Below, piece after piece: positions 5,652-29,075 of a DNA stretch of 38,558 bases. The stretch comes from an uncultured Silvanigrella sp. (GTDB lineage: Bacteria > Bdellovibrionota_B > Oligoflexia > Silvanigrellales > Silvanigrellaceae): the NCBI GenBank assembly GCA_903933385.1, contig CAIZJW010000314.1, positions 1 to 38,558 on the forward strand, given 5' to 3'. The notes under the pieces were generated by a model. The model did not search any database. It saw nothing but the letters and a program-made list of their open reading frames with translations, and had not been told where the DNA came from. Position 1 is the first letter of the stretch; each line of letters begins with the position of its first letter. The position numbers and the translations under genes were made by a program.

Positions 5652-5728
5652 TGGGGTGGCTGACGGGATTTGAACCCGCGCATGATGGAATCACAATCCA
5701 TTGTCTTAACCGCTTGACTACAGCCACC
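5652..5728 (-). tRNA. tRNA-His(GTG)
   Basis: Read on the minus strand, the gene starts GGTGGCTG and ends CAGCCACC plus CCA. The acceptor stem GTGGCTG/CAGCCAC is perfect. The extra 5' G (position -1) opposite C73 is the identity mark of histidine tRNA. The anticodon loop reads ATTGTGATT, with anticodon GTG. The T arm contains GGGTTCAAATCCC, and CCA is encoded. It lies tail to tail with the glycosyltransferase gene, 11 bases away. Confidence 0.97.
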
Positions 5729-5912: not shown

Positions 5913-7547
5913 ATGGTTGCTTCCTTGAATTCAACGTCTTCAGCGGGAACATCAACCGCCTTGGGTCGCCCCCGCCGAGTGTCGCTGTATGGTGTGGGAA
6001 TTGTTTCACCCGGAGCAGCCAACCTGCGCGAATTCTTGAGTTTGATTCAAGAAGGCAAACCCGCACTGAGCCCGATAGAGGAACTCCAAGGCGCTTTTCT
6101 GGTGGGCAATCCCAAATTCGACTTTGAAGTGCACCGTGACTGGATTACCCAAAGGCACGCGCCGAACAAGTTCTCCCAACTCTCGGACAAAGGCTACTCC
6201 CACGTTCGAATGGCCGTAGGAACATCTATCGATGCCCTCGAAAGTAATCCCGGGCTCGAGCAAACTCTCAAGAAAATCGATCCGCGGATTTTTGTTTGTT
6301 ACGGCAGTGGCTTTGGCGATCTTGAAGCCTATTTCAAGGGTCACGATGAATACAAAGCAGCCGAGAGTTCTTGGCAAAAGTTTTGGGCTCACCCAGAGAG
6401 AAACGCTGCACTGGCTGAGTACCTGGGTGGCAAGAAATCTTTTGAAAACGTCCCCCCCTCACCAACAACGTTCGAAATTGACACACAAGAGCGAGCGAGC
6501 GCGTGGCTTGCTTGGAATGCTTTTTGGTCGGAAAAATCGGATGGACTGCAGGAATATCTGCGCGAATTTAATGAAATGGAATCAATCACAATTGGTGCCG
6601 ACGTCGCAAATGACAAGCTCAATGTGATTCGCGCCAAAGCCAAGGCGAAAAAAGCATTGGCCGACAAATGGAAACACCCAGTTCCGCCTTGGGAAGCAGT
6701 GAATGCAAATCTGCTTTGGAATTTACCCAATGCACCCGCGGCTCAAGTTTCAATGCTGCATGGGATTCACGGAGTTTCCTACGCGTCTATTGGCGCTTGC
6801 GCGACATTTGGACTTGTTCTTCGCCAAGCATTAGATGGCATCCGGAGCGGAAATTACGATGCGGCTATTGTCGGAACAACAGATTTAGCTCCCCCACCCG
6901 AACTCGTTGCTGGGTTCAATGCTGCAAAAGTTCTTGCGGCCGGTTGCGATATTGGTGTTCCGCTCTGCAATTTGCGCGGCACGCACGTTGCAGGAGGAGC
7001 CTGCACATGGATCTTGGCAGCCGACGATGTCATGGAAAAACTCGGACAAAAATCACTCGGAATCGAAATTATGGGAGTTGGTTTGAGTTCTGATGCCGAA
7101 CACATCATCACTCCCTCTCTTGAAGGCCCAAAGCTTTGTATCCGTGACGCTTTCGCGCAAGCGAGTATCACTCCTGCTGATGTTCACACCTGGGACATGC
7201 ATGCAACAGGAACGCCAGGCGACTGGTCGGAGTTCAAGCTCATCGACAATCTGCCCGCCTCAACAATCATCACAGCGCGCAAAGGAATCTTTGGTCACGG
7301 CATGTCAACATGCGGCGGCTGGGAACTCACAGCTCAACTTCTTTCAACACAGAAAAATGGAACAAAGTATTCTCTTCTGGGCTCAGGTATTGAGAACCAA
7401 AAAGTACATCCAAGCATTCGCAATGTTGGCCGAACCTTAGCAACAGACAAGCCTATGACGTTAGAAGCGCCAAACGGGCTCGTCTGCGGCAAACTCAGCA
7501 TGGGGATTGGTGGTATCTCATCATGCGTACTGTCGAAAATTCATTAA
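5913..7547 (+). CDS. Atypical beta-ketoacyl synthase with a ~125-residue insertion
   Basis: The protein has 544 residues, against about 410 for FabF. The condensing-enzyme fold is clear: Cys296 in SIGACATFG is the acyl acceptor, His430 in HATGTPGD and His462 in GIFGHG are the two catalytic His residues, and Lys457 lies five residues before the second His as in FabF. A GSGFGDL segment near residues 131-137, equivalent to FabF GTGIGGL, is separated from the Cys region by roughly 125 residues rich in Trp, Lys and Glu that FabF lacks. It should condense an acyl thioester with a malonyl-type unit. No acyl carrier protein or acyltransferase lies in the window. GGAGGG precedes the ATG. It is the first gene of the KS-MT-GT-ABCC operon and overlaps the next gene by 25 bases. 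Confidence 0.88.
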   Translation: MVASLNSTSSAGTSTALGRPRRVSLYGVGIVSPGAANLREFLSLIQEGKPALSPIEELQGAFLVGNPKFDFEVHRDWITQRHAPNKFSQLSDKGYSHVRMAVGTSIDALESNPGLEQTLKKIDPRIFVCYGSGFGDLEAYFKGHDEYKAAESSWQKFWAHPERNAALAEYLGGKKSFENVPPSPTTFEIDTQERASAWLAWNAFWSEKSDGLQEYLREFNEMESITIGADVANDKLNVIRAKAKAKKALADKWKHPVPPWEAVNANLLWNLPNAPAAQVSMLHGIHGVSYASIGACATFGLVLRQALDGIRSGNYDAAIVGTTDLAPPPELVAGFNAAKVLAAGCDIGVPLCNLRGTHVAGGACTWILAADDVMEKLGQKSLGIEIMGVGLSSDAEHIITPSLEGPKLCIRDAFAQASITPADVHTWDMHATGTPGDWSEFKLIDNLPASTIITARKGIFGHGMSTCGGWELTAQLLSTQKNGTKYSLLGSGIENQKVHPSIRNVGRTLATDKPMTLEAPNGLVCGKLSMGIGGISSCVLSKIH

Positions 7548-8548
7548 GCCCGAGCAAAACTCAGGCGCCTTCGTTGTTTTTGGAGAGGATGCAGTTTTTT
7601 TATGAACTGTTTCCTTATCCGAACCGACCTATTTTTTTGAAACCAAATCCGAAAGGTTCGATAGACGCGCATGCAGGTTTCGCTCAAATTCTCGCCGGAA
7701 ACAGCGAGATTCCTGCTGGCAGTCGCATCGACGACCTCCAATTACGAGACGTTCGGCATGCATTTTCAATCAATAAGCGTATCGCGCTCGTTGGCTGTGG
7801 CACCGACGAACCTCTTTTGTTTCGCACTTTGCACCCGCACAACCCGATGGTTGCAATCGACCTCAGTCACCGCTCGCTGCTCCGAGCCGAAAGAAAAATT
7901 CGCTGGCACCAGTTAAAACCAGTGACGCTGGTTCATGGAGATGCTGAAACTGTCCTTAAACGCGAAGGACTCTTCGATCACATTCAATGTTTCGGAGTTC
8001 TTCATCATCAGCCTCATCCCAAAAAACTGCTCAAAACCATGGCCGAGTCCATGAATTCGGGCGGAACACTGCGGCTGATGATTTATTCAAGCAACGGGCG
8101 ACGACTAGAACGTGGGCTTCAAAAGAAATTTAATGCTCTCTGGCGCGACATACTCCCACACGTGAGCGAACAGCAGCCCTCTTCAAAAATGATAAAGTTG
8201 AAGATTACTTGGGCAAGCCTGAAGCTTCTGTGCTGGCGACTCCTTTTGCCAGTTGCCGCCTCGAGTGCGAAGTCAGGTCGGTTTCGCTACATCGGACTTT
8301 CACGGGCACGGGTTGCAGATGCTCTTCTGCATCCATCAGATCACGCCCTCAGCCTGCGCGATACGCTCACTTGGGCTGGCAAATATGGCCTAAGGCTCGT
8401 CAGCTTTAGGGCAAAAAGCTACGACTTGGGATGGATGGAAGCCCACACACATCTGCAAACTCCCTTACAAACCCTTGTGGCCGAAGAAGAACGTGGCAAT
8501 ATATCTACGAACATTGTTCTTGTTTTCCAGAAGGTCGGCAGTATTTAA
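7523..8548 (+). CDS. Class I SAM-dependent methyltransferase
   Basis: The protein has 341 residues. A SAM-binding motif I (IALVGCGTDEPLL, about residues 86-98) is followed by an acidic ribose-binding strand (VAIDLSHRSL) and the post-motif FGVLHHQPHPKKLLKTMAESMNSGGTLRLMIYS that is typical of small-molecule and quinone-type methyltransferases. The N-terminal 80 residues, with a QFFYELFPYPNRP stretch, are a family-specific cap. The C-terminal 130 residues are basic and partly hydrophobic, which may mean a lipid-like acceptor; that is inference. The start lies inside the ketosynthase gene and the stop overlaps the next ATG (TAATG), so it belongs to the same operon. The substrate is unknown. Confidence 0.85.
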   Translation: MRTVENSLSPSKTQAPSLFLERMQFFYELFPYPNRPIFLKPNPKGSIDAHAGFAQILAGNSEIPAGSRIDDLQLRDVRHAFSINKRIALVGCGTDEPLLFRTLHPHNPMVAIDLSHRSLLRAERKIRWHQLKPVTLVHGDAETVLKREGLFDHIQCFGVLHHQPHPKKLLKTMAESMNSGGTLRLMIYSSNGRRLERGLQKKFNALWRDILPHVSEQQPSSKMIKLKITWASLKLLCWRLLLPVAASSAKSGRFRYIGLSRARVADALLHPSDHALSLRDTLTWAGKYGLRLVSFRAKSYDLGWMEAHTHLQTPLQTLVAEEERGNISTNIVLVFQKVGSI

Positions 8549-9780
8549 TGGACTTCCAAATAGTACTCAATTCCAATCCGTGGTTCTCCGCGGTCACCGA
8601 TTATAGTTTGCAGTTGGCGCGATTTGTTTCTGCGAAACAAACGTGCAGGGTTATTTATTGCGCGCCTGCTGGCAGTCTCGCTTTGCGCAAAGCCAATCAA
8701 TCATCGCTGCAAACAAACGCGCTGCCGTTATTTCCATTCACAATCACGCGTTTTTTTGCCGCTTGGCATGCACTTGGTGAACTTGTCAAAAGCCACAAAC
8801 CATCCGTTGTGTGGATTTTTGAAGGCCGTGAACACACCTTATGCGCCCTTCACAGACTTGTTCACAAAAAAACGTGGGCATCCACACGCCTTGTGCGCGT
8901 GAGAGGCCAGGCAGCCCCAGTGCGCTCAACTGCGTTGAATAAATGGGTGTATACCCGAGGAATATCCGGGGTTGCATTTGCGGCACAAGTCGTACAACAG
9001 CGCACTGAATTTTCTGTACCCGACAATCAGCAAAAGGTTCATCTTTATTGCACGGCAAAGCTCATGGAGCCGGCACTTTCAATTGACTCCGCTCCGCAGC
9101 AACTTGCGGTTTCGAGAGACTGGTCAATTGATTTTTCACAGCCCACATTTACTCTTGTAGGCCGCTACGATCCTGTAAAAGGACACGCGGAAACCATTGA
9201 AGCCCTCGCAATTGCCAATTTTAAACCCTACCTCAAAGAGGGGCAGTGGCTTCAATTGGTATTCTTGGGGGAGTCACAAAATGTTTCGGCAATTGATCTC
9301 TTTGAGAAGGCGCAATCGACCCTCGGCGCAACCGGACGAGCCCTTTCGAGTTCACGTTGGCTTGTTGAGGTCCCCGAGAAACGAATTCGTCTGCTTCTCA
9401 TCGACGAACGGGTTCGCGATATTGCCGTTTGGATGAGGCAATCAAGCTTCGGCCTCATTCCAAGTCTCGGGAGTGAGGTAATTTGCCGCGTTGCCGTTGA
9501 ATTTCTGCAACAGGGGACTCCTATTGTGAGCAGCAATGTCGGCGCTCTGGCGGAGGTTCTTCCGCGCAGCTGCGCTCTGATTTATGAACACAGTCGCGTT
9601 CAGGAACTTGCCAGCGCTCTGGAAAAAGCACTGGTGCTTTGCAACCAACCCGATGCACTTAAAATCATGCGCCGCAATGCTCTCGAGCAGGGGCGTCGAT
9701 TCGGTCCGGAGGGTTGGAACGGACTCATCACCTGGGCTCGCGCGCTAGAACCCTTTTGTGAAAGCAATCGCTCGCAATGA
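8548..9780 (+). CDS. Family 4-type (GT-B) glycosyltransferase
   Basis: I place the start at the ATG at 8548, which overlaps the methyltransferase stop by one base. The ORF track extends 39 codons into the preceding gene without support. The resulting 410-residue protein has the two-domain GT-B layout. The C-terminal half begins with FTLVGRYDPVKGHAETIEALAIA. It ends with a donor-site block SEVICRVAVEFLQQGTPIVSSNVGALAEVLP, equivalent to the EX7E region of GT4 enzymes with E-G-xP-V preserved in outline. It should glycosylate the product of the operon or a lipid carrier. It overlaps the exporter gene by four bases (ATGA). Confidence 0.82.
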   Translation: MDFQIVLNSNPWFSAVTDYSLQLARFVSAKQTCRVIYCAPAGSLALRKANQSSLQTNALPLFPFTITRFFAAWHALGELVKSHKPSVVWIFEGREHTLCALHRLVHKKTWASTRLVRVRGQAAPVRSTALNKWVYTRGISGVAFAAQVVQQRTEFSVPDNQQKVHLYCTAKLMEPALSIDSAPQQLAVSRDWSIDFSQPTFTLVGRYDPVKGHAETIEALAIANFKPYLKEGQWLQLVFLGESQNVSAIDLFEKAQSTLGATGRALSSSRWLVEVPEKRIRLLLIDERVRDIAVWMRQSSFGLIPSLGSEVICRVAVEFLQQGTPIVSSNVGALAEVLPRSCALIYEHSRVQELASALEKALVLCNQPDALKIMRRNALEQGRRFGPEGWNGLITWARALEPFCESNRSQ

Positions 9781-12700
9781 AGTTCATTAAAGAAGAACAC
9801 AGTCCTTGGTACAAGCGTGTTCTTTTCCATTGGGTGAGTCCGCTCATTTCGGTGGGAAGTCGTGAGCACATATCTGATCAGCATCTCTTTGAACTCAACT
9901 CCCGCGAAGACTCCGCGCAACGTGGCGAAGAATTTTTCTCTTCGTTGAAATCCATGCAACATTCATTAAACCACCCTGTCTTGCGAACAATGTGGTCGCT
10001 GCATAAAAAAACTTTCTATTTCATCAGTGCACTCGCTTTTGTAAATCTAGTTTTTGTCACAATGAACCCTCTCATCATTCGTGAGGTTCTGAAGGCTCTC
10101 AAGTCAACAGAACCAGTTGGGACGAAAGGATGGCTGCTTTCAGGTGCTCTGATGTGCAGCGCTCTACTATCAAATCTCAGCATCCATCACGTCTATCATT
10201 CTTCTCTGAAGCTAGGCATGCGAATTCGCGCCGGGCTCGTTGTGTCCATTTATAAAAAAGCCCTACAGCTCAACCCAGCATCCCGCGCATCTTCCAGCAC
10301 GGGAGAAATAGTTAACCTCATGGCCAATGATGCCGCGCGTGTTTACAACGTAGCAAGCATGCTGCATTCCGCATGGGTGCTGCCAGTTCAGACGCTTGTT
10401 ATTCTTATTGCGCTCTTCAATATCATGGGAAGTGCGACTCTCGCTGGTGTTGCGGTGATGTTCGTCATGCTTTGGTTTTCATCGCGACGAGCAAAAAAAA
10501 TGATGTCCGGACGCCGTCGACTGATGGAATTCAGCGATCAACGCGTCAGTTTGATGAACGAAATTCTCAATGGCATCCGAGTCATTAAGTTTTACGCCTG
10601 GGAAAAAAGCTTTATCGGGCGCGTGAGAAAATTTCGCACACAGGAACTCACTGAACTCAGCGGCCTCGCGCGTGAATCAGCTTTTGTAAACATACTCTTC
10701 CTCAGCACTCCAATTTTTGTGGGACTCGCTACATTTTCTGCCCATTTAGCGATCGGCGGCACTCTTAATGTTGAAGATGTTTTTAGTGCCCTTGCATTTT
10801 TCGGAATTCTTCGCCCCATCATGTCTCAACTGCCCATGACTTTCTCAGGTTACATCGATGCAGGCATTGCTGTGCGTCGTATTGAGGCGTTTCTCATGCG
10901 CGATGAATTCCCGGTGCGAAAGTCTCAATCAGAAATTGGCTGTGGAGAGATTCACATACGCGCCGGAACTGTTGAGTGGGCTCCGGGCAAAAGCTCACTC
11001 ATTTTACCAGACATTAAAATTCGCGCGGGCGAACTGGTTGTCATTCTTGGCCCTGTTGGCTCGGGCAAATCAACATTTTTGCATAGCATTTTGAACGAGC
11101 TCAACAATTCTGATCAGCTCATCGAAAGCTCGGGACGTTTTGCATTTGTTCCCCAGCTTCCCTGGATCCTCAACGGCACTGTTCGTGAAAATATTCAATT
11201 GAGCGATTTTGAAAAACCGCATGTCTACAGAAATGCAATCGCAGCCTCCTCGCTTGAAGACGATCTCTCCCAACTCGCTCTCGGCGATGAAACTGAAATT
11301 GGTGAGCGCGGAGTGAACCTTTCGGGTGGCCAAAAGCAACGCATTGCGCTGGCTCGAGCCGTATTTTCTGAAGCTGACATCTACCTTCTCGACAGCCCTT
11401 TGAGCGCAGTTGACAGCAAAGTTGGCAAAGAAATTTTCAGGGACTGCCTTCGCGGTTTGCTCTCGAACAAAACCCGACTTCTTATTACTCACAATGTTGA
11501 ACACACAGCTTGGGCAGATCGGGTTCTTTGGATTCAAGATGGTCGAATCAGAGAACTCTCAACCAACGAGATCGAAGCACTCCGCAAATCACAAACTCTG
11601 CAAACAGCAGAGCCCAGCTTGAGCACTCCAGGATTATCGCCCGAGCCACTTCCGGGTGAAGCCTCGAGCGTTAATTCACTTTCAACTGCAAACGAACAAA
11701 CTTTTAAAATGGCAACAACAGTTCCAATGACAGCACATCCTGCACAATCTCCTGCAAGAATTCACAATCCAAGTGCAGGTAGACTTGTTGTCGATGAAGA
11801 ACGTCAAGTAGGAGCCGTCGAACGCGCACTTTACTCAAACTATTTGAAGGAGCTTGCTCCAGGAAAAGCATTAACAATTCTTGCAACATTGTTTATTCTG
11901 CGAGAAGTCTTCAATGCCGGGAGTGACTCATGGCTCGCATGGTGGACCACACACAAATCACAAAGCATTAGCGTCTTCCTCCTTGTGCTTGCGCTGCTTG
12001 GTGCAGCGGCTGCAACCATGACCTACCTGCGCACCTTAATGACAGCGCGTGGAGGTGTAAAAGCAGCTGGGTCACTGCACGAACGCCTCCTCGACGGCGT
12101 GTTGAAAGCACCTATGAGCTTTTTTGAAAAGACACCCACCGGGCGCATTTTGAACAGATTTGGTAAAGACACTGAAGCAATTGATCAGCACATACCCAGC
12201 ACTCTCATGGAGGCCCTGGGATGCTTGTTCACCATTGGTGCAACTCTCACTTTCGTATCGCTCGCTACGCCAGTTGCGCTGCTTGCGCTTTTTCCTTTGG
12301 CTTTTGTCTATCTCAAAATCCAGCATTTATTCAGAGTGACCTCTCGGGAGGTCAAACGTCTTGAATCGATTTCGCGCTCACCGGTTTATGCGCATTTCTC
12401 AGAATCACTGGCCGGGGTGAGCGTCATAAGAGCATTTGACTGCACACAGATATTTGTTCGAGAAAGCATTCGTCGCTTTGAAGGCAACCAACGCGCTTTC
12501 TACACAATGATATCGTTGAATCGGTGGCTTGGTACCCGCCTAGAGTTTATCGGAGCGCTTGTGGTCGGCTGTGCTTCGGCTTCGGCAATACTCCTACAAG
12601 GTCAAATCACAACAGCATTTGCGGGTGTGTCTCTCACCTACGCCCTTCTTGTCACCGGTGCTCTGAATTGGGCGGTGCGCATGGTGAGCGAACTTGAAAG

Positions 12701-13535
12701 CAGTATGAATGCCATCGAAAGAGTGAATCATTATTCTGAGACACAGAGTGAAAAATGGGAGGGGCAGTCTCCGCATGCAGCTTGGCCCTCTGCTGGAAAC
12801 ATTGAATTCCGCCAACTCACACTTCGTTATCGACCCGAACTGCCTCCCGTTCTCGAGCGCGTGAGTCTTCATATAAAGGCTGGTGAGAGCATCGGGATTG
12901 TGGGACGCACCGGCGCGGGAAAAAGCACATTGATGCAAACTCTCTTCCGCATCGTGGAACCACCGGTAGGAACTGTGTTCGTCGATGACATCGATATTAC
13001 TACTTTGCCCCTCGAGACATTGCGCAGCCGAATTGCAATCATCCCGCAGGACCCTATTTTGTTTTCAGGTACATTCCGACAGAACGTCGATCCATTCGAC
13101 CAATATTCCGACACCGATGTGCTTTACGCACTCGAGAGATCTCATCTCTCGCAGGTCCTTGAATCTTTGCCACAGGGTCTGCAAACCATCGTTCAAGAAG
13201 GCGGATGCAACTTGAGCGTTGGCCAACGACAACAGGTTTGTTTAGCCCGGGCGCTGCTCCGCAAAGCTCGAGTCCTCCTTCTCGACGAAGCAACAGCCAA
13301 TGTTGATTCACATACCGACTCACTCATACAGGCCACAATTCAAAGCGAATTCTCAGGCTGCACAATTCTAACCATCGCCCACCGACTGAACACCGTGATG
13401 CACTGTGACAGGATCGTGGTCATGCAAAGTGGCCGAATTGTGGAATGTGAATCACCTTCGCGATTGATGGCCGACAAGCGAGGGGTTTTTGCAGGTTATT
13501 GGGCCGATGCCCGGCTTGAGCTCCCAGCGCACTGA
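9777..13535 (+). CDS. Full-length ABCC (MRP)-type ABC exporter
   Basis: The 1252-residue chain holds two membrane domains and two ATPase domains in the order TMD1-NBD1-TMD2-NBD2. The N-terminus (FHWVSPLISVG...) and the linker before TMD2 (GRLVVDEERQVGAVE) resemble eukaryotic multidrug-resistance proteins (ABCC) and not the usual bacterial half-transporters. There is no TMD0. NBD1 has Walker A GPVGSGKST (425-433), signature LSGGQ (515-519) and Walker B IYLLDSPLSAVD, in which Ser539 replaces the catalytic Glu. NBD2 has Walker A GRTGAGKST (1043-1051), signature LSVGQ (1146-1150) and intact LLLDEATANVD with Glu1171. Hydrolysis is thus probably asymmetric, as in MRP proteins. It probably exports an amphipathic or conjugated compound, perhaps the product of the three overlapping upstream genes. 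Confidence 0.9.
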   Translation: MKFIKEEHSPWYKRVLFHWVSPLISVGSREHISDQHLFELNSREDSAQRGEEFFSSLKSMQHSLNHPVLRTMWSLHKKTFYFISALAFVNLVFVTMNPLIIREVLKALKSTEPVGTKGWLLSGALMCSALLSNLSIHHVYHSSLKLGMRIRAGLVVSIYKKALQLNPASRASSSTGEIVNLMANDAARVYNVASMLHSAWVLPVQTLVILIALFNIMGSATLAGVAVMFVMLWFSSRRAKKMMSGRRRLMEFSDQRVSLMNEILNGIRVIKFYAWEKSFIGRVRKFRTQELTELSGLARESAFVNILFLSTPIFVGLATFSAHLAIGGTLNVEDVFSALAFFGILRPIMSQLPMTFSGYIDAGIAVRRIEAFLMRDEFPVRKSQSEIGCGEIHIRAGTVEWAPGKSSLILPDIKIRAGELVVILGPVGSGKSTFLHSILNELNNSDQLIESSGRFAFVPQLPWILNGTVRENIQLSDFEKPHVYRNAIAASSLEDDLSQLALGDETEIGERGVNLSGGQKQRIALARAVFSEADIYLLDSPLSAVDSKVGKEIFRDCLRGLLSNKTRLLITHNVEHTAWADRVLWIQDGRIRELSTNEIEALRKSQTLQTAEPSLSTPGLSPEPLPGEASSVNSLSTANEQTFKMATTVPMTAHPAQSPARIHNPSAGRLVVDEERQVGAVERALYSNYLKELAPGKALTILATLFILREVFNAGSDSWLAWWTTHKSQSISVFLLVLALLGAAAATMTYLRTLMTARGGVKAAGSLHERLLDGVLKAPMSFFEKTPTGRILNRFGKDTEAIDQHIPSTLMEALGCLFTIGATLTFVSLATPVALLALFPLAFVYLKIQHLFRVTSREVKRLESISRSPVYAHFSESLAGVSVIRAFDCTQIFVRESIRRFEGNQRAFYTMISLNRWLGTRLEFIGALVVGCASASAILLQGQITTAFAGVSLTYALLVTGALNWAVRMVSELESSMNAIERVNHYSETQSEKWEGQSPHAAWPSAGNIEFRQLTLRYRPELPPVLERVSLHIKAGESIGIVGRTGAGKSTLMQTLFRIVEPPVGTVFVDDIDITTLPLETLRSRIAIIPQDPILFSGTFRQNVDPFDQYSDTDVLYALERSHLSQVLESLPQGLQTIVQEGGCNLSVGQRQQVCLARALLRKARVLLLDEATANVDSHTDSLIQATIQSEFSGCTILTIAHRLNTVMHCDRIVVMQSGRIVECESPSRLMADKRGVFAGYWADARLELPAH

Positions 13536-13574: not shown

Positions 13575-14063
13575 ATGAGCCAGACCCCCTCCGATTCCGC
13601 ACAAACCTCCAATAAAACCAAACACAAAGCCTGGTGGGTGCTGGGGGCTCTCGCAGTATTGTCTATTCTCATGGCCGGACTCACCACCATCACATACCGC
13701 CAAACCGACGTGCATCTCGTACAGATGTACACTTACTTTAAGGACTTCGGTTCCAAGGGAACTGCCGAGTCATGTATCGATGAAGTCATCCAGTGGGTGC
13801 CAAAGTGCGACGGCATGAAGGCTCTGTGCGAAGGTGCCGTTCCGAGAATCATGGACAGCTGTCTTGCTGGCCAAAACCGCGCGAGCGAATGCGCAGCTCT
13901 CGCAAATCGCCCCGCCGACGCCCACTTTGGTTTCAAGGAATGTGAGGTACGTAAGCTTTCCCGCAGTTTAAACAAAGTTTGCGGAAATTCTTACAAGGCA
14001 CTAGATCTCCATTGTCGGGCGATCGGCTATCTCCCCGCATCAGTTGAGAAGTACGCAAAATGA
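13575..14063 (+). CDS. Membrane-anchored Cys-rich protein of unknown function
   Basis: The 162-residue protein starts at the ATG at 13575, five bases after AAAGGA. The first 25 residues are polar, one transmembrane helix follows (about residues 26-45), and the rest should face the periplasm. The soluble part has eight Cys residues. Three pairs are spaced CX10C (starting ESCIDE, ALCEG and KVCGN) and one CX9C, reminiscent of helical hairpins held by disulfides. I recognise no family. It lies 39 bases after the exporter gene and overlaps ctaB by four bases (ATGA). A role in haem or copper delivery to cytochrome oxidase is therefore possible but is only an inference from context. Confidence 0.78.
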   Translation: MSQTPSDSAQTSNKTKHKAWWVLGALAVLSILMAGLTTITYRQTDVHLVQMYTYFKDFGSKGTAESCIDEVIQWVPKCDGMKALCEGAVPRIMDSCLAGQNRASECAALANRPADAHFGFKECEVRKLSRSLNKVCGNSYKALDLHCRAIGYLPASVEKYAK

Positions 14064-14953
14064 CCGCAACATCAGAAGTCAGTTTAGAACCACCTATGCG
14101 CCTGTGGCGCGATTACTATGAACTGACCAAACCACGGATAACGCTTTTCTGTTTGCTCATGACCTTGGGCGGCATTGCCTTAGCACCACAGTCCATGCCG
14201 TGGCTGAAAGTCATTGCAACGCTCGTTGGTTCGGCTTTCTCAGTGGGCGCCGCCAACACGCTCAATATGTACTGGGAGCGCGAAACCGATAAATTAATGA
14301 AACGCACTGCGACGCGACCACTCGCAACCGGTCGCTTAGATGCATCATGGGCACTTCTTTTTGGAATCACACTCGCAGTGACGTCGGTGGCTGTGCTTGG
14401 ATTTTGGGTCAATTGGCTCACATCTGCATTGAGCCTTTTTGCACTTCTCTCTTATGTACTTGTTTACACACCCATGAAAAGAATATCGCCTCATGCACTG
14501 CTCATTGGAGCTATTCCGGGCGCAATGCCACCTTTGCTCGGCTGGACGGCAGCTACTGCAGAAGTTTCACTTCCTGGTCTTATTCTTTTTGCAATTCTTC
14601 TGATTTGGCAAATACCTCACTTCATCGCGATATCGGTTAATCACAAAGACGATTATAAGAGGGCGGGAATCAAAACCTGGCCTGGCGAGCGTGGAATGCG
14701 TCCGGCAACTGTGCAGGCCCTGCTCTATTCTCTTGCTTTACTTCCTGTGAGTTTGCTTTTGCTCCAAGTGGGGGTTGCCAGCTACGTTTATGGCATTACC
14801 GCATTTGCGCTCGGAGTGTGGATGATTCTCATGAGTGCCCGCGGATTCAATCCAACCAAGCACACACAATGGGCGCGTCAGTTATTCCTCGTGTCGTTGG
14901 TATATCTTCCTGTTTTGACTATTGGCCTCGCCATTGACGTTTTAATGAAATGA
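14060..14953 (+). CDS. ctaB: Protoheme IX farnesyltransferase (haem O synthase)
   Basis: The 297-residue integral membrane protein belongs to the UbiA prenyltransferase family. It attaches a farnesyl group to haem B to give haem O, the precursor of haem A used by the caa3 oxidase encoded downstream. The N-terminal YYELTKPRITLFCLLMTLGG and the first Asp-rich prenyl-diphosphate site NTLNMYWERETDKLMKRTATRPLATGRL are diagnostic of CtaB/CyoE. The second site appears as NHKDDYKRAGIKTWPGERG. The length is typical. The start overlaps the Cys-rich gene by four bases and the stop overlaps the ABC ATPase gene by four bases. Haem A synthase (ctaA) is not in the window. Confidence 0.95.
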   Translation: MTATSEVSLEPPMRLWRDYYELTKPRITLFCLLMTLGGIALAPQSMPWLKVIATLVGSAFSVGAANTLNMYWERETDKLMKRTATRPLATGRLDASWALLFGITLAVTSVAVLGFWVNWLTSALSLFALLSYVLVYTPMKRISPHALLIGAIPGAMPPLLGWTAATAEVSLPGLILFAILLIWQIPHFIAISVNHKDDYKRAGIKTWPGERGMRPATVQALLYSLALLPVSLLLLQVGVASYVYGITAFALGVWMILMSARGFNPTKHTQWARQLFLVSLVYLPVLTIGLAIDVLMK

Positions 14954-15900
14954 TTATTTCGCTTTCTCAATACACATATGAATACAAATCTGGGGTCAAA
15001 GCACTCGACGTTTCATCGTTAAACATTGCACTCGGTGAGACGTTGGCGCTTGTTGGCCGCAATGGCTCCGGGAAATCCACACTTCTGCATTGCTTAGCTG
15101 GAGTGTTTAATACCCGCACAGGAACTCGTCACTGCAGAGTTGCTGCGGAGAAAATTTCTCTCGTATTTCAGACGCCATGCCTCGATAAGAAACTAACTGT
15201 TCGAGAAAACCTTGTGCTGTTTGGAAAAGTATGGGGACTGAGTGCGCGAACACTTGCAAAAAACCTTGAGATCCTGACGTCTCTTCTCGATCTGAGTGAA
15301 CTACTCGATTGTATTGTGGGATCATTATCCGGAGGTCAGCAGCGTAGAGCCGATCTCGCTCGCGCACTTCTCTCTGAACCACAGGTGCTTTTTCTCGATG
15401 AACCTACCTCCGGTCTGGATATCGTTGCCCAAAGGGAATTTTGGTCGGTGCTTGCCAAAGCACGGGCTGCGCAACCGAATCTCACCCTCATTTGCGCATC
15501 GCATCATTCCACGGAACTGGGGCTTTTCGACCGCATCATTTTTCTCGAGCAAGGGCGCATGGAACTCGACCTTCCGCGTTCTCAACTTCTTAAGCAACTT
15601 CCTCCAGAAACGCTGGAAATTCACACCACAAATGGCTCGAATCTCTCACAGATTATCGAGAAAAAGCTTTCGCTGCGCCCCACGGAATTGATGCATGATA
15701 AATTGGTATTGCACTCCCACGACGCAACGAAATCGCTCGCAGAACTCAAAAGTGACAACGAAATTGATGCACTGATTGAATCGACAACTGTGCGTAAAAC
15801 CTTGCTCGCCGATGCCGTGTGGCAGAAACTGCTTGAACTTCCGAGCCGCGCTCGCGGTGTCAGCTCAGAGCTCGGTACACTTTCCGGGATCATTCCATGA
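14950..15900 (+). CDS. ABC transporter ATP-binding protein in the oxidase assembly cluster
   Basis: The protein has 316 residues. The ATPase core has Walker A GRNGSGKST (36-44), signature LSGGQQRR, Walker B VLFLDEPTSGLD and an H-loop CASHH. A C-terminal extension of roughly 100 residues follows, as in DrrA/NatA-type ATPases of ABC-2 exporters. It pairs with the permease encoded next, with a four-base overlap, and both sit between ctaB and sco. That position suggests a substrate linked to oxidase assembly, such as haem, copper or a maturation factor. The sequence itself does not tell the substrate. It is not a clear CcmA, which is shorter. Confidence 0.9.
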   Translation: MIISLSQYTYEYKSGVKALDVSSLNIALGETLALVGRNGSGKSTLLHCLAGVFNTRTGTRHCRVAAEKISLVFQTPCLDKKLTVRENLVLFGKVWGLSARTLAKNLEILTSLLDLSELLDCIVGSLSGGQQRRADLARALLSEPQVLFLDEPTSGLDIVAQREFWSVLAKARAAQPNLTLICASHHSTELGLFDRIIFLEQGRMELDLPRSQLLKQLPPETLEIHTTNGSNLSQIIEKKLSLRPTELMHDKLVLHSHDATKSLAELKSDNEIDALIESTTVRKTLLADAVWQKLLELPSRARGVSSELGTLSGIIP

Positions 15901-16670
15901 AACTGACACAAACCTGGCAAGTGGCCGCCGCTCTTTGGCAGCGCGACATGCTCCGATTCGGCAAAGAACGTTCGCGATGGCTTGGCTTGGTGTCACAGCC
16001 GCTCATGTTCTGGTTTTTGATTGGTTTTGGTCTTAATAACGTTGTGACACTGCCCGAAGCAAACGGCAATTATCTGCAGTTTTTCTATTCGGGTTCGCTC
16101 GTCATGTGCGTTCTATTCACAACCCTCTTTGGCGCTATTAGCCTGATTGAAGACGCTCAAAGTGGATTTTTGCGGGCCATACTCGCCTCCCCTGCCCCGC
16201 GGCTGGGTATTGCGCTTGGCAAAGTTTCCGGACTTGTTACGCTCGTACTCGTGCAACTTGCACTTCTTCTGCTGTTCTTACCTTTTACCGGTTTGAGCTA
16301 CGCTTCTCTCAACTATACACTTCTCATCATTGCAGCAGTCGTTGGAAGCACATCATTAGCAGCTTTGAATCTGGGAGCAGCGCTTCTTATCAATTCCGTG
16401 CAAGGTTATCACGCCGTGATGGGGCTCATCCTTTTTCCTCTCTGGATTGTTTCCGGAGCGATGTTTCCAATTCCTCAAGGCGGTCTTCTCGGCACTCTCG
16501 CAATCATTAATCCCATGACCCATATCTCTGCTCTATTTCGCGATGCACTCATTCCGCCTCAAAACTTAAATCAATCTTTGATTCATTTTTCTTTTTTGTT
16601 CATCCAGGCCGTTGTGTGCGTGTGGTTCACAACAGCCATGACTCGCAACAGGAAGGCTCGTCATGTTTGA
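15897..16670 (+). CDS. ABC-2 type transporter permease
   Basis: The 257-residue protein has about six membrane spans. It contains the cytoplasmic loop SLIEDAQSGFLRAILASPAPRLGIALGKV, which is typical of the ABC-2 (DrrB/NodJ) permease family. The opening segment WQRDMLRFGKERSRWLG with early Arg/Lys residues also fits. It forms a transporter with the ATPase encoded immediately upstream; the genes overlap by four bases. Its last eight bases overlap the sco gene. The transported compound is unknown. Confidence 0.88.
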   Translation: MKLTQTWQVAAALWQRDMLRFGKERSRWLGLVSQPLMFWFLIGFGLNNVVTLPEANGNYLQFFYSGSLVMCVLFTTLFGAISLIEDAQSGFLRAILASPAPRLGIALGKVSGLVTLVLVQLALLLLFLPFTGLSYASLNYTLLIIAAVVGSTSLAALNLGAALLINSVQGYHAVMGLILFPLWIVSGAMFPIPQGGLLGTLAIINPMTHISALFRDALIPPQNLNQSLIHFSFLFIQAVVCVWFTTAMTRNRKARHV

Positions 16671-17292
16671 AAAAATCGTAGAACGTTTCAAGCGTCAGCC
16701 TTTTTTGTGGGCGGCAGTCATGTGTATGCTTGTTATCACTGTGCTTACCCCACTCACTCGACGAGTTCCTCAACCACCGCCGGTTTTGGGCGAAGTTCCG
16801 CAGTTCACCCTGACGAATGAGAACAACCTACCGTTTGGCTCTCAACAGCTTGCCGGAAAAGCTTATGTTGCGAGTTTTGTTTTCACACGCTGCAAAACAT
16901 TCTGCCCAATTATCTTTCAACATCTCAAAAGTCTTCAGGAGCGAATTCAAATCGCGAAGCTGCCTCTTACGATTGTCAGTTTTACAGTTGATCCAGATCA
17001 CGACACGCCTGACATTCTGAAAACTCAGGCAACAGCACTTTCCGCAGACCCGCAAACTTGGACGTTTCTCACATCCGAAAGATCCACCATGGTCAAATTA
17101 GTGGAAGGCGGATTCATGCTAGGAATGGGTGAAGCAACAATGAGTGGTGAATTGATGGACATCGCCCATGCTCAAAAGCTTGTGCTGGTGGATGCGACTG
17201 GAAAAATCCGAGGCTTCTACGATGCCACTTCTGCAGGCATCGATGAGACGTTTGCGCGGGCTGAAGCCATTGCCGGCGAGTCATTCTTCTGA
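16663..17292 (+). CDS. Sco1/SenC/PrrC-type copper chaperone
   Basis: The 209-residue protein has one N-terminal membrane anchor (about residues 14-32) and a thioredoxin-like domain in the periplasm. The copper-binding CKTFC motif (Cys77, Cys81) and the distal His169 (MDIAHAQKL) are all present, as required for Cu delivery to the CuA centre of cytochrome oxidase subunit II. A VDPDHDTPDIL block is characteristic of Sco proteins. It is the last gene of the ctaB-ABC-sco group. A second Sco-like gene lies downstream in the oxidase operon, so the two may differ in task (copper carrier or disulfide reductase). Confidence 0.92.
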   Translation: MFEKIVERFKRQPFLWAAVMCMLVITVLTPLTRRVPQPPPVLGEVPQFTLTNENNLPFGSQQLAGKAYVASFVFTRCKTFCPIIFQHLKSLQERIQIAKLPLTIVSFTVDPDHDTPDILKTQATALSADPQTWTFLTSERSTMVKLVEGGFMLGMGEATMSGELMDIAHAQKLVLVDATGKIRGFYDATSAGIDETFARAEAIAGESFF

Positions 17293-17504
17293 CCACTCAA
17301 TCACATTCCAACAAACTAGACTAAGCTCACCCAGCATCATGATTCAGATCAACTGAGCCAAGAAAATTTCTCAAGCGATTGTTTTGATGCGAGACTTGCT
17401 CACGTAAGCTGGATGAACTAGAGAATGCGCGCAACGGGGTGAAAGTGTTCAACCCCGCCTAGTGTGTTTTCGTGTGTCAAACCCTCATGAATGAAGGTGA
17501 TAGA
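17293..17504 (+). promoter_or_regulatory. Leader region of the alternative complex III operon
   Basis: This is the only sizeable gap (about 210 bases) in a run of coupled genes, so a promoter for the respiratory operon is likely here. A weak candidate is TTGCTC at 17396-17401, then 17 bases, then TAGAGA at 17419-17424. It is followed by a hairpin at 17435-17457 listed separately. No convincing gene is seen in the gap. Confidence 0.35.
17435..17457 (+). terminator. Hairpin in the leader of the act operon
   Basis: CGGGGT-GAA pairs with TTC-A-ACCCCG around an AGTG loop: nine base pairs with one bulged A. A TTTT stretch lies ten bases beyond, so it may be a weak terminator for the ctaB-sco operon or an attenuator. 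It stands just upstream of the actA start. Confidence 0.4.
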
Positions 17505-18152
17505 GTGACACCCATTTTTCCGAAGTGGACCAATCAAATCCCAACAATGGTTGCGGTTGGTGCCCCAATTGCTCTTGTTAGTGTTGTTCTTTTCATTTGG
17601 TACTTTTTCTCCCCTAAATGGACGGATGTAGGCTACACGCCGAAGCAGCCTGTGGCGTTCAGTCACCAGCTTCATGCCGGACAAATGGGAATGGACTGCC
17701 GCTATTGCCACAGCACCGTTGAGCGTGCCGCTTTTGCTGCAATCCCGCCCACAGAAACATGCATGGGTTGCCACAGCATGGTTCAAGCAAAGAGCCCGCG
17801 CTTGCAGCTTGTGCGTGAATCGTATCAATCCGGTAAGCCAATTGAGTGGGTGAAGGTGCACATGCTTCCAGAGCATGCCCACTTCAATCACTCTATCCAT
17901 GTCAGCTCAGGTGTGAATTGCGCCTCGTGTCATGGTCGCATCGATCAAATGAAAGTGGTTGGTCAAACTCAACCACTCAGCATGGGATGGTGTCTCGATT
18001 GCCATCGCAATCCTACACCTAATCTCGTTCCCAAAGATCAGGTGACGAACCTGGCCTACGATCCTGCGAAAGAAGGTTACGTGCCAGAGAAAGATCCACA
18101 CCGCCAACGTGGTGTGAATCCTCCACAACACTGCTCTGGTTGCCACTACTGA
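17505..18152 (+). CDS. actA: Alternative complex III subunit A, pentahaem cytochrome c
   Basis: The protein has about 215 residues, an N-terminal membrane anchor (VAVGAPIALVSVVLFIWYF) and five CXXCH haem sites in order: CRYCH, CMGCH, CASCH, CLDCH and CSGCH. This number and spacing match ActA of alternative complex III, which passes electrons from the quinol site towards the oxidase. I favour the GTG at 17505 (MTPIFPKWTN...), four bases after AAGGTGA. An ATG at 17487 and a GTG at 17472 are in frame and possible. The order actA-actB-actC-actD-actE-actF that follows confirms the assignment. Confidence 0.92.
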   Translation: MTPIFPKWTNQIPTMVAVGAPIALVSVVLFIWYFFSPKWTDVGYTPKQPVAFSHQLHAGQMGMDCRYCHSTVERAAFAAIPPTETCMGCHSMVQAKSPRLQLVRESYQSGKPIEWVKVHMLPEHAHFNHSIHVSSGVNCASCHGRIDQMKVVGQTQPLSMGWCLDCHRNPTPNLVPKDQVTNLAYDPAKEGYVPEKDPHRQRGVNPPQHCSGCHY

Positions 18153-18182
18153 ACAAAAGTCTTGAACCTGGGGAATGCACAC

Positions 18183-21100
18183 ATGCAGTCTGAAAATAAT
18201 CAGGAAAAGAGCGGCAAAAAATATTGGCGTAGCCTGGAAGAAATGGCTGAGTCTCCTGAGCTGCTCGCTCGAATGAAGAATGAATTTCCATCCGGCGCTG
18301 CCGAATTTGAAGTGACACCTGGTGTCGACCGTCGTTCCTTTTTGGGAATTATCGGTGCATCTGCTGCATTTGCAGGGTTAACATCAACAGCAGGCTGTAT
18401 CCGTAAGCCCTCTGAAAAAATCCTTCCCTACAACAAGCGCCCCGAAGAGCTCGTTGAAGGTAAGCCGCAGTTCTATGCATCTGCAGGCCGCTTTGGGGGC
18501 AGTGTTTTCGGACTCCTCGTTACAAGCTACGAGGGGCGTCCTACAAAAATCGACGGCAACCCCTCTCATCCAATGAGTTTGGGCGCAACAAATACGTTTG
18601 CTCAGGCCGCTATTCTCGACGTCTACGATCCCGACCGCAGTCAGTCCGTTCTCAAAAACGGCAAGTCTGTCGAGGCGACTCGTACGACTCTGAAGTCCTT
18701 GAAAGCAGCGCTTGCAGCAGCGAGCGCTGAACTGAAAGCAAACGGCACAAGTGGTCAGGGTGTTGCACTTCTCATGGAAGCAGCGCCTTCCCCAACACTC
18801 ATCGGCCTCGTTCGTGACTTTCAGGTTGCATTTCCGAAAGCAACTTTAGCCATCCATGATCCTGCGATGCGTTGGCAGGAAACTGCAGCTCTTGACTCAA
18901 TGGGCTTCAAAAACGCACAGCTGTTTTATCGCCTCGAAGAGGCCGATGTACTTGCAATGTTTGATGCCGATCCTCTTGGCATTGAGGGCGATGTTGTTCG
19001 CAACTCAAAAATGTTTGCAGCAAAGCGCAGAAGCGTCGACGAGTCGAAAACAATGTCGCGCCTCTATGTTGTTGAGTCAGCTTTCACAAACACGGGTGTT
19101 GTTGCCGACCACCGTTTGAGCTTGCGCAGTTCTGCTATGGGTGAAGCACTTTTAGCACTCGCATCTGAACTATCTTCGCAAGGGCTCGCTCTTCCTGCAG
19201 AGATTGTTGCTCGCAGCAAACAAATCTCAAGCCCGAACGAAAAATGGCTCAAAGCTCTCGCAACCGACCTCCTGCTCAACAAGGGCAAGAGCTTGGTCAT
19301 GGTGGGACAAAGCCAGCGTGCATGGATCCACTCCATCGCGTTCGCCATCAACTCTGCACTTGGAAATCTCGGACAAAGCGTTGTCGTTCGCTCAAGCAAT
19401 TTGCCAGCGGCAGTTTCTTTGGCTGAACTGACCACCGAAATGAACCGAGGCTCTATCCAGGCTCTGGTCATTTTGGATGCTAACCCCGTTTACACATCTG
19501 CGGCCGACCTCGAGTTCTCTGAGGCTCTCAAGAAGGTCAAAACAAGCATACATTTGGGTTACCACGCCGATGAAACGGCAGTTGCTTGCTCAATGCACTT
19601 CCCCCGCAGCCACTCTCTTGAGAGTTGGGGCGATCTCGTCAGCACCGACGGTACGGCATCTATTGTTCAGCCCGTCATCGAGCCCCTCTTCGCTTCGCTC
19701 AGCGATGTAGAGTTCCTTGCTGGTCTTCTTGGTGTGAGCAAAAATTCTTATGAGCTTGTTCAGGCCCAATGGAAGAAGTCGACACCATCTGACTTCGATT
19801 CCTCTTGGCGGCGCTGGCTGCACGATGGAGTTGTTAAAGGAACCATTGGTGAAACCCTCACGGCTAAAGCTGACTTCAGCAAGCTTGCGCAACAGCTCGC
19901 AGGGCTCGGTGCATCACCGACTCCTACGGCTTCGCAAATGGAACTCCGACTGACCCTCGACCGTAGCGTCTTCGATGGACGTTACACGAACAATGCGTGG
20001 CTTCAGGAAATTCCTGATTCAGTGACTAAGCTCACTTGGGACAACGCAGCACTGCTCAGCCCTAAAACGGCCAAAGAGAAGGGCATAAAAACAGGCGACT
20101 TCGTAGAAATCAAAGTCAAACAGGACAAAGAGCGTTCTCTGAAAATTGCCGCTTATGTTGTTCCTGGAATTGCTGAAAACACTGTTGTTGTTTCGCTCGG
20201 CTATGGCCGCTCTTTCAATGGCCGTGTTTCCAATGGCACTGGATTCAATGGCTACAGCTTGCTCAGCCGTGAAGACATGTTCTCTTTTGGCGCTGAAGTG
20301 CAACGCACGACTGGAAAATACGAGCTTGCGACAACTCAAGAGCACGGCGTTTCAGACTACCAATACGACACAATGGTTGGCCGCGAAGCAATCACAACTC
20401 GCGGCGTAACCCGCGAAGTCACACTTGCAACACTCAAGGCCGATCCTACCCTCGAAAACACGTTCAAGAAGTTTAATTTGCTTGATCCAAAGATGCACAG
20501 AACATTGCTTTGGACGAAGCCCAATGAAACACGCGGCAATCAGTGGGGAATGGCAATTGACCTTAACTCCTGCACTGGCTGTAATGCTTGTACGGTTGCG
20601 TGCCAGGCGGAAAACAACATTTCGGTGGTAGGCAAGAAGCAAGTTCTGAAGAGCCGCGAAATGCACTGGATTCGTATCGACCGTTACTTCACAGGAAACG
20701 TCGACAATCCAGATTCCATCCAGGCAACATTTCAGCCAATGGCGTGTGCTCACTGCGAAACAGCACCTTGTGAGCAAGTGTGTCCAGTTGCAGCTACGGT
20801 GCACGGCGTAGAAGGTACAAACGACATTGCCTACAACCGATGTATTGGTACTCGCTACTGCGCAAACAACTGTCCATACAAAGTTCGTCGCTTCAATTAC
20901 TTCAATTTCTCGAAGGAAAACGACGAAGCGAATCCACTTTATGCGATGCAGAAAAATCCGCGCGTGACTGTTCGTTTCCGCGGTGTGATCGAGAAGTGCT
21001 CTTATTGCGTGCAGCGCATCAATGCAGCCCGTGTCGAAGCCAAAATTCGGGGAGAAGAAATTCTTCGTGAAGGCTCAGTTGTGACGGCTTGCCAACAAGT

Positions 21101-21284
21101 GTGCCCAACCGACGCTATCACATTCGGTAACCTAGCCGATGATGTTGATAGTCGTGTGAAGCAACTCAAGGCGCTCCCTCGCAACTACGCAGTGCTTTCA
21201 GAGCTTGCTCTTGAGCCGCGTACGACTTTCCTTGCGAAAGTCCGCAATACGAATCCCGAACTTGAACCTTCAACCCAACTCTGA
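18183..21284 (+). CDS. actB: Alternative complex III subunit B, molybdopterin-oxidoreductase-like/iron-sulfur fusion
   Basis: The protein has 1033 residues from the ATG at 18183; the TTG at 18162 is a weaker choice. The opening KYWRSLEE and a Tat-type signal with RRSFLG (Arg50-Arg51), followed by a lipobox-like TAGC with Cys72, are typical of ActB. Residues of roughly 80-740 resemble the molybdopterin oxidoreductase fold, which in known ACIII carries no molybdenum cofactor. The last 300 residues form a ferredoxin-like domain with Cys clusters CTGCNACTVAC, CAHCETAPCEQVCPV, CIGTRYCANNCPYKVRRFNY, CSYCVQRI and CQQVCPT, enough for one [3Fe-4S] and three [4Fe-4S] centres as in characterised ACIII. 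It acts on the periplasmic side and hands electrons from quinol to the haems. Confidence 0.95.
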   Translation: MQSENNQEKSGKKYWRSLEEMAESPELLARMKNEFPSGAAEFEVTPGVDRRSFLGIIGASAAFAGLTSTAGCIRKPSEKILPYNKRPEELVEGKPQFYASAGRFGGSVFGLLVTSYEGRPTKIDGNPSHPMSLGATNTFAQAAILDVYDPDRSQSVLKNGKSVEATRTTLKSLKAALAAASAELKANGTSGQGVALLMEAAPSPTLIGLVRDFQVAFPKATLAIHDPAMRWQETAALDSMGFKNAQLFYRLEEADVLAMFDADPLGIEGDVVRNSKMFAAKRRSVDESKTMSRLYVVESAFTNTGVVADHRLSLRSSAMGEALLALASELSSQGLALPAEIVARSKQISSPNEKWLKALATDLLLNKGKSLVMVGQSQRAWIHSIAFAINSALGNLGQSVVVRSSNLPAAVSLAELTTEMNRGSIQALVILDANPVYTSAADLEFSEALKKVKTSIHLGYHADETAVACSMHFPRSHSLESWGDLVSTDGTASIVQPVIEPLFASLSDVEFLAGLLGVSKNSYELVQAQWKKSTPSDFDSSWRRWLHDGVVKGTIGETLTAKADFSKLAQQLAGLGASPTPTASQMELRLTLDRSVFDGRYTNNAWLQEIPDSVTKLTWDNAALLSPKTAKEKGIKTGDFVEIKVKQDKERSLKIAAYVVPGIAENTVVVSLGYGRSFNGRVSNGTGFNGYSLLSREDMFSFGAEVQRTTGKYELATTQEHGVSDYQYDTMVGREAITTRGVTREVTLATLKADPTLENTFKKFNLLDPKMHRTLLWTKPNETRGNQWGMAIDLNSCTGCNACTVACQAENNISVVGKKQVLKSREMHWIRIDRYFTGNVDNPDSIQATFQPMACAHCETAPCEQVCPVAATVHGVEGTNDIAYNRCIGTRYCANNCPYKVRRFNYFNFSKENDEANPLYAMQKNPRVTVRFRGVIEKCSYCVQRINAARVEAKIRGEEILREGSVVTACQQVCPTDAITFGNLADDVDSRVKQLKALPRNYAVLSELALEPRTTFLAKVRNTNPELEPSTQL

Positions 21285-21298
21285 AGTGGTGAGCGCAC

Positions 21299-22711
21299 AT
21301 GGAAACATCAGTTACGCTTGCGAATCTTGAAGAACACGTCGACAAACGCGCACCCCTCGTATTGGGACGTGAAACGTTTTCTTCCGTGACCGACATCGTT
21401 GCCAGGCCCATGGAAATGGCAACTCCAAAAACATGGTGGATATGCTTCCTCATTGCGCTCTCTGGTTTGGGCGTGTTGGGTGCTGCAATTGCTTACCTCT
21501 TTTGGGAGGGCGTCGGTGTTTGGGGTCTGAACAACCGAGTCGGCTGGGCCTGGGATATTACCAACTTCGTATTTTGGGTTGGTATTGGTCATGCGGGAAC
21601 ACTCATCTCCGCTATTCTGTTTCTATTCCGTCAGAAGTGGCGAACTTCAATTAACCGCGCCGCAGAGGCAATGACGATTTTTGCCGTCATTTGCGCTCTT
21701 ATCTTCCCAGGGATTCACGTTGGTCGTGTTTGGGTTGCCTACTGGCTCTTCCCAATCCCTAACCAAATGGCAATGTGGCCAAACTTCCGTAGCCCTTTGC
21801 TCTGGGACGTGTTCGCGGTCTCAACCTATTTTACGGTTTCAACGCTGTTTTGGTTCGTGGGTCTTATCCCTGACATCGCAACCTTCCGCGACCGCTCAAA
21901 AGGCATTCGCAAATTTGTTTACGGTTTGTTTGCTCTTGGATGGCGCGGCTCGCACAGGCACTGGCTCAACTACGAACGCGCTTACTTAATTCTCGCGGCT
22001 CTCTCGACTCCCCTGGTTTTGTCAGTGCACACCATCGTGAGTTTCGACTTCGCGACCTCGCAACTTCCCGGATGGCACGCAACAATCTTCCCTCCATACT
22101 TCGTTGCAGGGGCAATTTTCTCGGGCTTTGCGATGGTTATCAACCTGATGATCATCTGTCGTTGGGTGTTCAAGCTCGAACACCTCGTAACAATGCGCCA
22201 CTTCGAGAACATGGCAAAAATCATTCTCCTCACAGGATCAATGGTTGGATATGCCTATGCCATGGAATTCTTTATCGCTTGGTATAGCGGTAACCCTTAT
22301 GAGCGTTACATTTTCATCAGCCGTGCTACAGGCCCATACGCTTGGGCTTACTGGACAATGGTTACCTGCAACGTAATCATCCCTCAGCTGTTTTGGGTGC
22401 GTAAAATCCGCACAAACCTCTGGGCACTTTTCATCATTGCGGTGTTTGTGAACATCGGTATGTGGTTCGAGCGATTCGTGATTATCGTCACCTCACTGCA
22501 CCGAACGTTCCTTCCATCTTCGTGGGCCTACTTCAAACCAACTTTCGTTGACATCGCCACGTTCATTGGGTCGTTTGGATTGTTCTTTACCCTCTTCTTG
22601 TTGTTTATTCGCTTCCTTCCCATTGTTGCGATTTCGGAAGTGAAAACAGTGATGCCAGAGGCTGATCCGCACGGTCATGGTCACGACACAAAAGGAGGAG
22701 CACACTCATGA
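21299..22711 (+). CDS. actC: Alternative complex III subunit C, NrfD/PsrC-like quinol-binding membrane protein
   Basis: The 470-residue protein has about ten transmembrane segments and belongs to the NrfD/PsrC family. Blocks such as [32 protein letters not shown] and [36 protein letters not shown] are well conserved in ActC. The family oxidises menaquinol in the membrane and passes electrons to the iron-sulfur subunit. The C-terminal tail is His-rich. The start follows actB by 14 bases and the stop overlaps actD by four bases (ATGA). Confidence 0.95.
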
Positions 22712-25117: not shown

Positions 25118-25132
25118 AAGAGGGACGAAACG

Positions 25133-25468: not shown

Positions 25469-25486
25469 GAGAACTAACGAGGACTC

Positions 25487-27372: not shown

Positions 27373-27383
27373 GGAATTCCACC

Positions 27384-29072: not shown

Positions 29073-29075
29073 GAC

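Follow-up and report, generated by a model that had tools for sequence, protein, structure and literature searches.

A ketosynthase, methyltransferase, glycosyltransferase and ABCC exporter in one Silvanigrella gene train: a proposed patchwork operon

Four overlapping genes in an uncultured Silvanigrella sp., which encode a ketosynthase (KS), a class I SAM-dependent methyltransferase (MT), a glycosyltransferase (GT) and an exporter of the ABCC/MRP type (ABCC), are present as a complete and closely spaced set only in the genus to which this DNA belongs. On balance, we favor the view that this operon exists at the level of one genus and was put together from three modules with separate lines of inheritance and with the roles proposed below; the modules would have been joined in this genus and then translationally coupled. 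The lasting value of the locus is in its first gene. The KS family, a variant of the known KAS I/II fold, is distinct from the housekeeping FabF and apparently uncharacterised, and it merits study. In what follows, the window is the whole stretch of DNA that was analysed (38,558 nucleotides).

Anatomy of the gene train

The features of the train are listed in Table 1. A preliminary description of this DNA had reported four overlapping plus-strand genes of these types, and the reading frames and all three junctions agree with it exactly. KS and MT overlap by 25 bases (7523-7547), MT and GT are joined through TAATG (8546-8550) and GT and ABCC through ATGA (9777-9780). The gene types also hold, including the exporter with two TMDs and two NBDs, for which MRP is the best match. 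The extent of the train, however, had been drawn too short, because it runs on past ABCC to 17292. The ABCC stop at 13535 is separated by 39 bases from the start of c23 at 13575, and the genes for c23, CtaB, the NosF-like and NosY-like proteins and SCO then overlap in series by 4, 4, 4 and 8 bases. The train consists of nine genes, with KS-MT-GT-ABCC as its front part and the heme O synthase and SCO genes downstream.

Table 1. Features of the gene train and its upstream boundary
Feature	Positions	Strand	Basis or remark
tRNA-His(GTG)	5652-5727	-	upstream boundary of the train
KS (ketosynthase, 544 aa)	5913-7547	+	Pfam PF00109/PF02801, alignments, AlphaFold model
MT (class I SAM-dependent methyltransferase, 341 aa)	7523-8548	+	Pfam Methyltransf_11
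GT (GT-B fold, glycosyl transferase group 1, GT4-like, 410 aa)	8548-9780	+	Pfam PF13692/PF00534
ABCC (full-length ABCC/MRP-type exporter, 1252 aa; TMD1-NBD1-TMD2-NBD2, without TMD0)	9777-13535	+	domain and family models
c23 (162 aa, without Pfam match)	13575-14063	+	immediately precedes CtaB in four genera
Heme O synthase CtaB/CyoE	14060-14953	+	TIGR01473 277.6 bits, cut-off 210.3
ABC-2 ATPase (NosF-like)	14950-15900	+	
ABC-2 permease (NosY-like)	15897-16670	+	
SCO1/SenC	16663-17292	+	

No carrier protein, acyltransferase, reductase, thioesterase or release enzyme was detected among the domains of the train; the absence of the first three had already been pointed out. A scan for promoters and terminators gave sites that were not above the number found in shuffled sequence. 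A recent foreign origin of the train was considered and rejected, since its composition is ordinary (GC 49-52% in all of the genes measured). The c23 protein is cysteine-rich and is possibly an oxidase assembly factor.

Distribution of the four genes among relatives

The window's genus is represented by three species (the window genome, G001 and G002), and the genus that includes Fluviispira, Spirobacillus and their kin by eight genomes, including G007 and G013. These distribution data are subject to the incompleteness of metagenome-assembled genomes and to gene models from a mechanical ORF caller, including those of high-GC relatives. Two of the genomes from the window's genus are deposited as Betaproteobacteria and Proteobacteria, and the label Betaproteobacteria looks wrong by kinship.

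All three species of the window's genus have KS-MT-GT-ABCC in the same order. In this comparison dS is >1.5 wherever it can be estimated, i.e., synonymous sites are saturated, and dN is 0.12-0.36. The 25-base KS/MT overlap is exactly retained in G001 and G002, and G001 has all three junction types. Because the order and the exact overlap were kept despite this divergence, the arrangement is more than chance. Purifying selection acts on the four genes in this genus, where they evolve as a coupled set, which is a point against the module view.

Outside the genus the pattern is more complicated. For example, KS and MT are adjacent in G004 and the GT is on a different contig. In G003, MT-GT precedes ABCC-c23-CtaB with about 6 kb of other genes between the two, and no KS of the window's KS family was found there. 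G005 has the order GT-c23-CtaB. The KS gene is present in seven of the eight genomes of the Fluviispira/Spirobacillus genus, the exception being G013, which is 72% complete; its neighbors at the loci examined are L,D-transpeptidase and PfkB kinase genes. The MT-GT pair of this genus is at a site separate from the KS, adjoining ugpBAEC. An orthologous ABCC is present in one of the four genomes of this genus that were searched (G007), and there too it accompanies c23-CtaB.

Taken by pairs, KS-MT is found in the window's genus and in G004, MT-GT in the window's genus, in G003 and in the Fluviispira/Spirobacillus genus, and ABCC-c23-CtaB in the window's genus, G003 and G007, with the syntenic ABCC copies forming one clade (support 96). 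The modules within the family are a KS (plus MT in one other genus, that of G004), an MT-GT pair and ABCC-c23-CtaB with cytochrome genes. Three modules rather than one pathway is the simplest reading of this gene distribution. An ancestral single string that was broken later is possible, because different genera retain different overlapping pairs; the adjacent KS-MT (two genera) and MT-GT (three genera) may both descend from an ancestral KS-MT-GT-ABC unit, which would favor a shared pathway.

Such a pathway had been proposed in the preliminary description. In the version considered here, the KS would make an acyl or ketide core on the housekeeping ACP, the MT would methylate it, the GT would glycosylate it and the ABCC would export it, with an ancestor that had the whole operon and descendants that mostly scattered the genes yet kept the pathway. 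The order retained in three species at such synonymous divergence is consistent with this proposal, and the overlapping KS-MT, MT-GT and GT-c23 or ABC-c23 pairs elsewhere may represent pieces of a single string. However, G003 has MT-GT and ABCC without the KS, three of the four searched genomes of the Fluviispira/Spirobacillus genus carry KS and MT-GT without an orthologous ABCC, genomes of other phyla have the KS but not this MT, and the train has no reductase, thioesterase or release enzyme. We consider the proposal quite improbable. Since the complete order is restricted to one genus and the set is split elsewhere, a sequence of making, methylating, glycosylating and exporting is unsupported as a conserved system, and a dedicated acyl or polyketide pathway with its own exporter is likewise unsupported; the ABCC tracks c23-CtaB. 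The earlier interpretation as a whole is partly supported.

The opposite explanation is that nothing but a common transcript connects the four genes, MT-GT included, and that their roles are unrelated. Three modules with different neighbors and different phylogenetic ranges would agree with it, but the MT-GT adjacency lasts in three genera at several genomic sites, which suggests selection, and so we regard this explanation as unlikely.

A stand-alone ketosynthase family

The window KS has Cys296, His430, Lys457 and His462 and the gate loop G-I-G-G at residues 531-534. Its scores against the N- and C-terminal ketoacyl-synt domains of Pfam are 58 and 43 bits. The curated fabF model gives 102.9 bits, below its cut-off of 493.75, and none of the curated family models exceeds its cut-off on this protein except generic ketosynthase domains. 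The catalytic Cys, His, Lys and His are invariant in all 53 aligned members of the family, and so are the equivalents of FabF Asp311 and Glu314. The family shares these residues, and the thiolase-type KAS fold, with FabF and FabB (KAS II and KAS I). The intact tetrad argues for an active decarboxylative condensing enzyme, as judged from the sequence, and not for a dead partner resembling a chain-length factor.

The family differs from FabF and FabB in several respects. The position of the Phe in the GFGG loop is occupied by Ile in 25, Val in 24 and Leu in four of the 53 members, whereas it is Phe in all 17 FabF-like rows. The insert region has 124-138 residues in the 53 aligned members as opposed to 18 in FabF; it contains a helical insert of about 110-120 residues, located at about 137-260 in the window KS. 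Loop 2 is two residues shorter than in FabF in the aligned family rows shown. In quick trees, 44 rows of the family are divided by a branch with support 100 from 20 rows of FabF-like and other ketosynthases, including the window genome's own FabF, and the branch length is not readable as a rate because long branches and insert columns inflate it. The ketosynthase was therefore rightly called unusual. The AlphaFold model (pLDDT 83) folds like FabF apart from an extra helical block, and its nearest structures are FabF entries, at 16-20% identity in the structural alignment.

The distribution of the family is patchy. It is present in 11 of the 14 genomes of the window's family and 12 of the 58 of its phylum, in 57 of the 149 genomes of the class containing Thermoanaerobaculia, in 10 of the 16 of the phylum Latescibacterota and in one of the 395 in the sample of the Deferrisomatales phylum. 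Genome scans and profile searches gave full-length relatives with 40-53% identity in Pseudobacteriovorax, in Thermoanaerobaculia/Acidobacteriota and in one Deferrisomatales genome. One Latescibacterota genome has a split copy and full-length copies occur elsewhere in that phylum. No match was found among 72,556 plasmids.

The clustered neighbors of 53 KS loci include no partner gene common to the phyla, save scattered housekeeping genes such as a glutamyl-tRNA synthetase-type gene. The MT family is absent from the KS-bearing Thermoanaerobaculia, Deferrisomatales and Latescibacterota genomes, except for one marginal match in Thermoanaerobaculia. With neither this MT nor a shared partner in other phyla, the function of the KS is independent of the MT, the GT and the exporter. 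Runs of Elp3-KS-DUF2868-DUF3482 exist at the level of lineages only, in some Acidobacteriota; at L109 and L113, for example, a gene for an Elp3-like radical SAM protein touches or overlaps the KS, DUF2868 and DUF3482 come next, and the arrangement recurs in several Acidobacteriota loci. In G004 a canonical FabF (L111, 11176-12564, plus strand) is just downstream of KS-MT, the sole KS locus seen beside a FabF.

A uniform family in Bdellovibrionota, Acidobacteriota and Latescibacterota points to overlooked bacterial lipid or ketide chemistry, and cluster-based genome mining may miss it because the KS stands alone. Among open-licence papers, nothing relevant was found on this KS family, on Silvanigrellaceae polyketides or on bacterial ABCC exporters.

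In the module view, the KS is the first module and would need no clustered partner. The window genome has one detected ACP locus, on another contig, so that the lack of a carrier protein described for the cluster extends, for a dedicated one, to the whole genome, and with this single locus the KS most likely uses the housekeeping ACP. The enzyme would load an acyl chain from this ACP onto Cys296 and condense it with malonyl-ACP by a decarboxylative Claisen condensation that involves His430, His462 and Lys457. The acyl chain is gated in FabF by Phe400 of the GFGG loop, a position that is Val or Ile in DEBS KS domains that accept branched extenders (PMC7138838). By analogy with DEBS, from which any substrate preference is drawn here, the change of Phe to Ile, Val or Leu may let in an acyl chain that is branched or bulkier than those of FabF, and the helical insert may serve as an additional wall or lid. 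The likeness to DEBS-type modular PKS domains is in this position (PMC7138838); the window KS differs in being stand-alone, with no acyltransferase, carrier or reductase nearby, and in a sequence closer to FabF.

The KS could instead be a second elongase of fatty acid synthesis, FabB-like and serving, e.g., unsaturated or branched chains, with a position that has no pathway meaning. This idea fits the module view and differs from it in the substrate. The complete FabF-type catalytic set and fold, the single ACP and the abundance of iso-branched and monounsaturated acids in the relative Fluviispira vulneris (PMC10645651) are in its favor. However, the family departs from FabF in its gate residue, shortened loop 2 and large insert, most of the relatives sampled from the phylum lack it, and a canonical FabF (on another contig) and FabH (in the window at 30298-31329, over the curated cut-off) are already present. 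We think that such a role is rather unlikely. FabY is an alternative to FabH, and a FabY-like initiator role for the KS was set aside because of this FabH.

A bolder suggestion, to which we give little credence, is that the KS represents a new class of enzymes that join carbon chains, spread over at least four phyla, whose helical lid and aliphatic gate divert fatty acid chains into a bulky or branched lipid; in the window's genus, the neighboring genes would then methylate, glycosylate and export this lipid. If this were true, a stand-alone enzyme would divert chains from the ordinary fatty acid machinery. Condensing enzymes determine which chains a cell can build, and the insert and gate offer handles on how the substrate range of a ketosynthase is set.

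The MT-GT pair and the exporter

The MT has an N-terminal F-P-Y-P-N-R-P motif. Its homologues are Oligoflexia-wide, occurring in the majority of genomes of that class, and the F-P-Y-P motif is present in those with frames read. Among solved structures, CmoM, UbiG, PKMT1 and Rv2067c come closest, as found with a low-confidence model that is weak in the first 80 residues; these matches are generic, and the attempt to read a substrate from structure was abandoned. The likeness to CmoM/UbiG and to the protein lysine methyltransferases (rickettsial PKMT1/2 and Rv2067c) is in the Rossmann core, and significant sequence alignment is limited to the SAM-binding core; the FPYPNRP region and the C-terminal half have no match in these enzymes. 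The GT scores 35.6 bits against PF13692 (cut-off 27) and 33.6 bits against PF00534 (cut-off 26.4).

The adjacency of MT and GT in three genera at different locations suggests that the two act on a shared acceptor. As the second module of the proposed operon, they would probably methylate and glycosylate this acceptor, which may be a glycolipid or glycan of the envelope. In the mycobacterial methylglucose lipopolysaccharide system, a methyltransferase and a GT4 enzyme act on one glycan. The window train resembles that set, by analogy, in this pair of enzyme types, and differs from it in having no branching enzyme. The importers beside MT-GT were considered as a substrate clue and dismissed, because the context is not shared (a glycerol-3-phosphate importer in the Fluviispira/Spirobacillus genus and a polyamine-type importer in G003).

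The ABCC has two TMD-NBD units in one chain, with a degenerate NBD1 that has Ser in place of the catalytic Glu (LLDSPLSAVD) and an intact NBD2 that retains it (LLLDEATANVD). It scores 998.4 bits against TIGR00957, the full-length MRP equivalog, which is below the cut-off of 1470 and yet is by far its best family; the model has 1522 positions and starts with a region absent from the window protein. The match to MRP1, MRP4 and Ycf1 is full-length and collinear, with the same combination of a degenerate NBD1 and an intact NBD2. The window protein differs from these exporters in being bacterial, in lacking TMD0 and in having Ser at the NBD1 position where the aligned MRP1 has Asp. Full-length exporters of the ABCC type are also present in other families of the class. 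Several divergent ones (L099, L100, L101, L091-L094 and L097) indicate an expansion in the family and class.

The third module of the proposed operon would be this asymmetric exporter, which would share its inheritance with c23-CtaB and the respiratory genes. A related explanation, which fits the module view, is that the ABCC serves oxidase or heme biogenesis by exporting a thiol or heme-related anion and that GT, MT and KS are unrelated to it. CydDC, which serves cytochrome bd biogenesis, would be the model. The ABCC-c23-CtaB order in three genera, which in G007 and G003 occurs without KS or tight GT linkage, and the single ABCC clade are consistent with this explanation, but three of the four searched genomes of the Fluviispira/Spirobacillus genus have no orthologous ABCC, and CydDC consists of half-transporters of another subfamily. 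We view a role in oxidase biogenesis as possible, though doubtful.

Downstream of the train, the plus-strand genes at 17472-29771 encode a multihaem cytochrome c, a molybdopterin/4Fe-4S protein, an NrfD protein, SCO1, COX2, COX1 and COX3, and they resemble an alternative complex III and cytochrome oxidase train. Further on, the minus strand (34277-38209) encodes a protein of 1310 amino acids whose residues 225-697 form a subtilase (S8) domain and in which much of the chain has no assignment.
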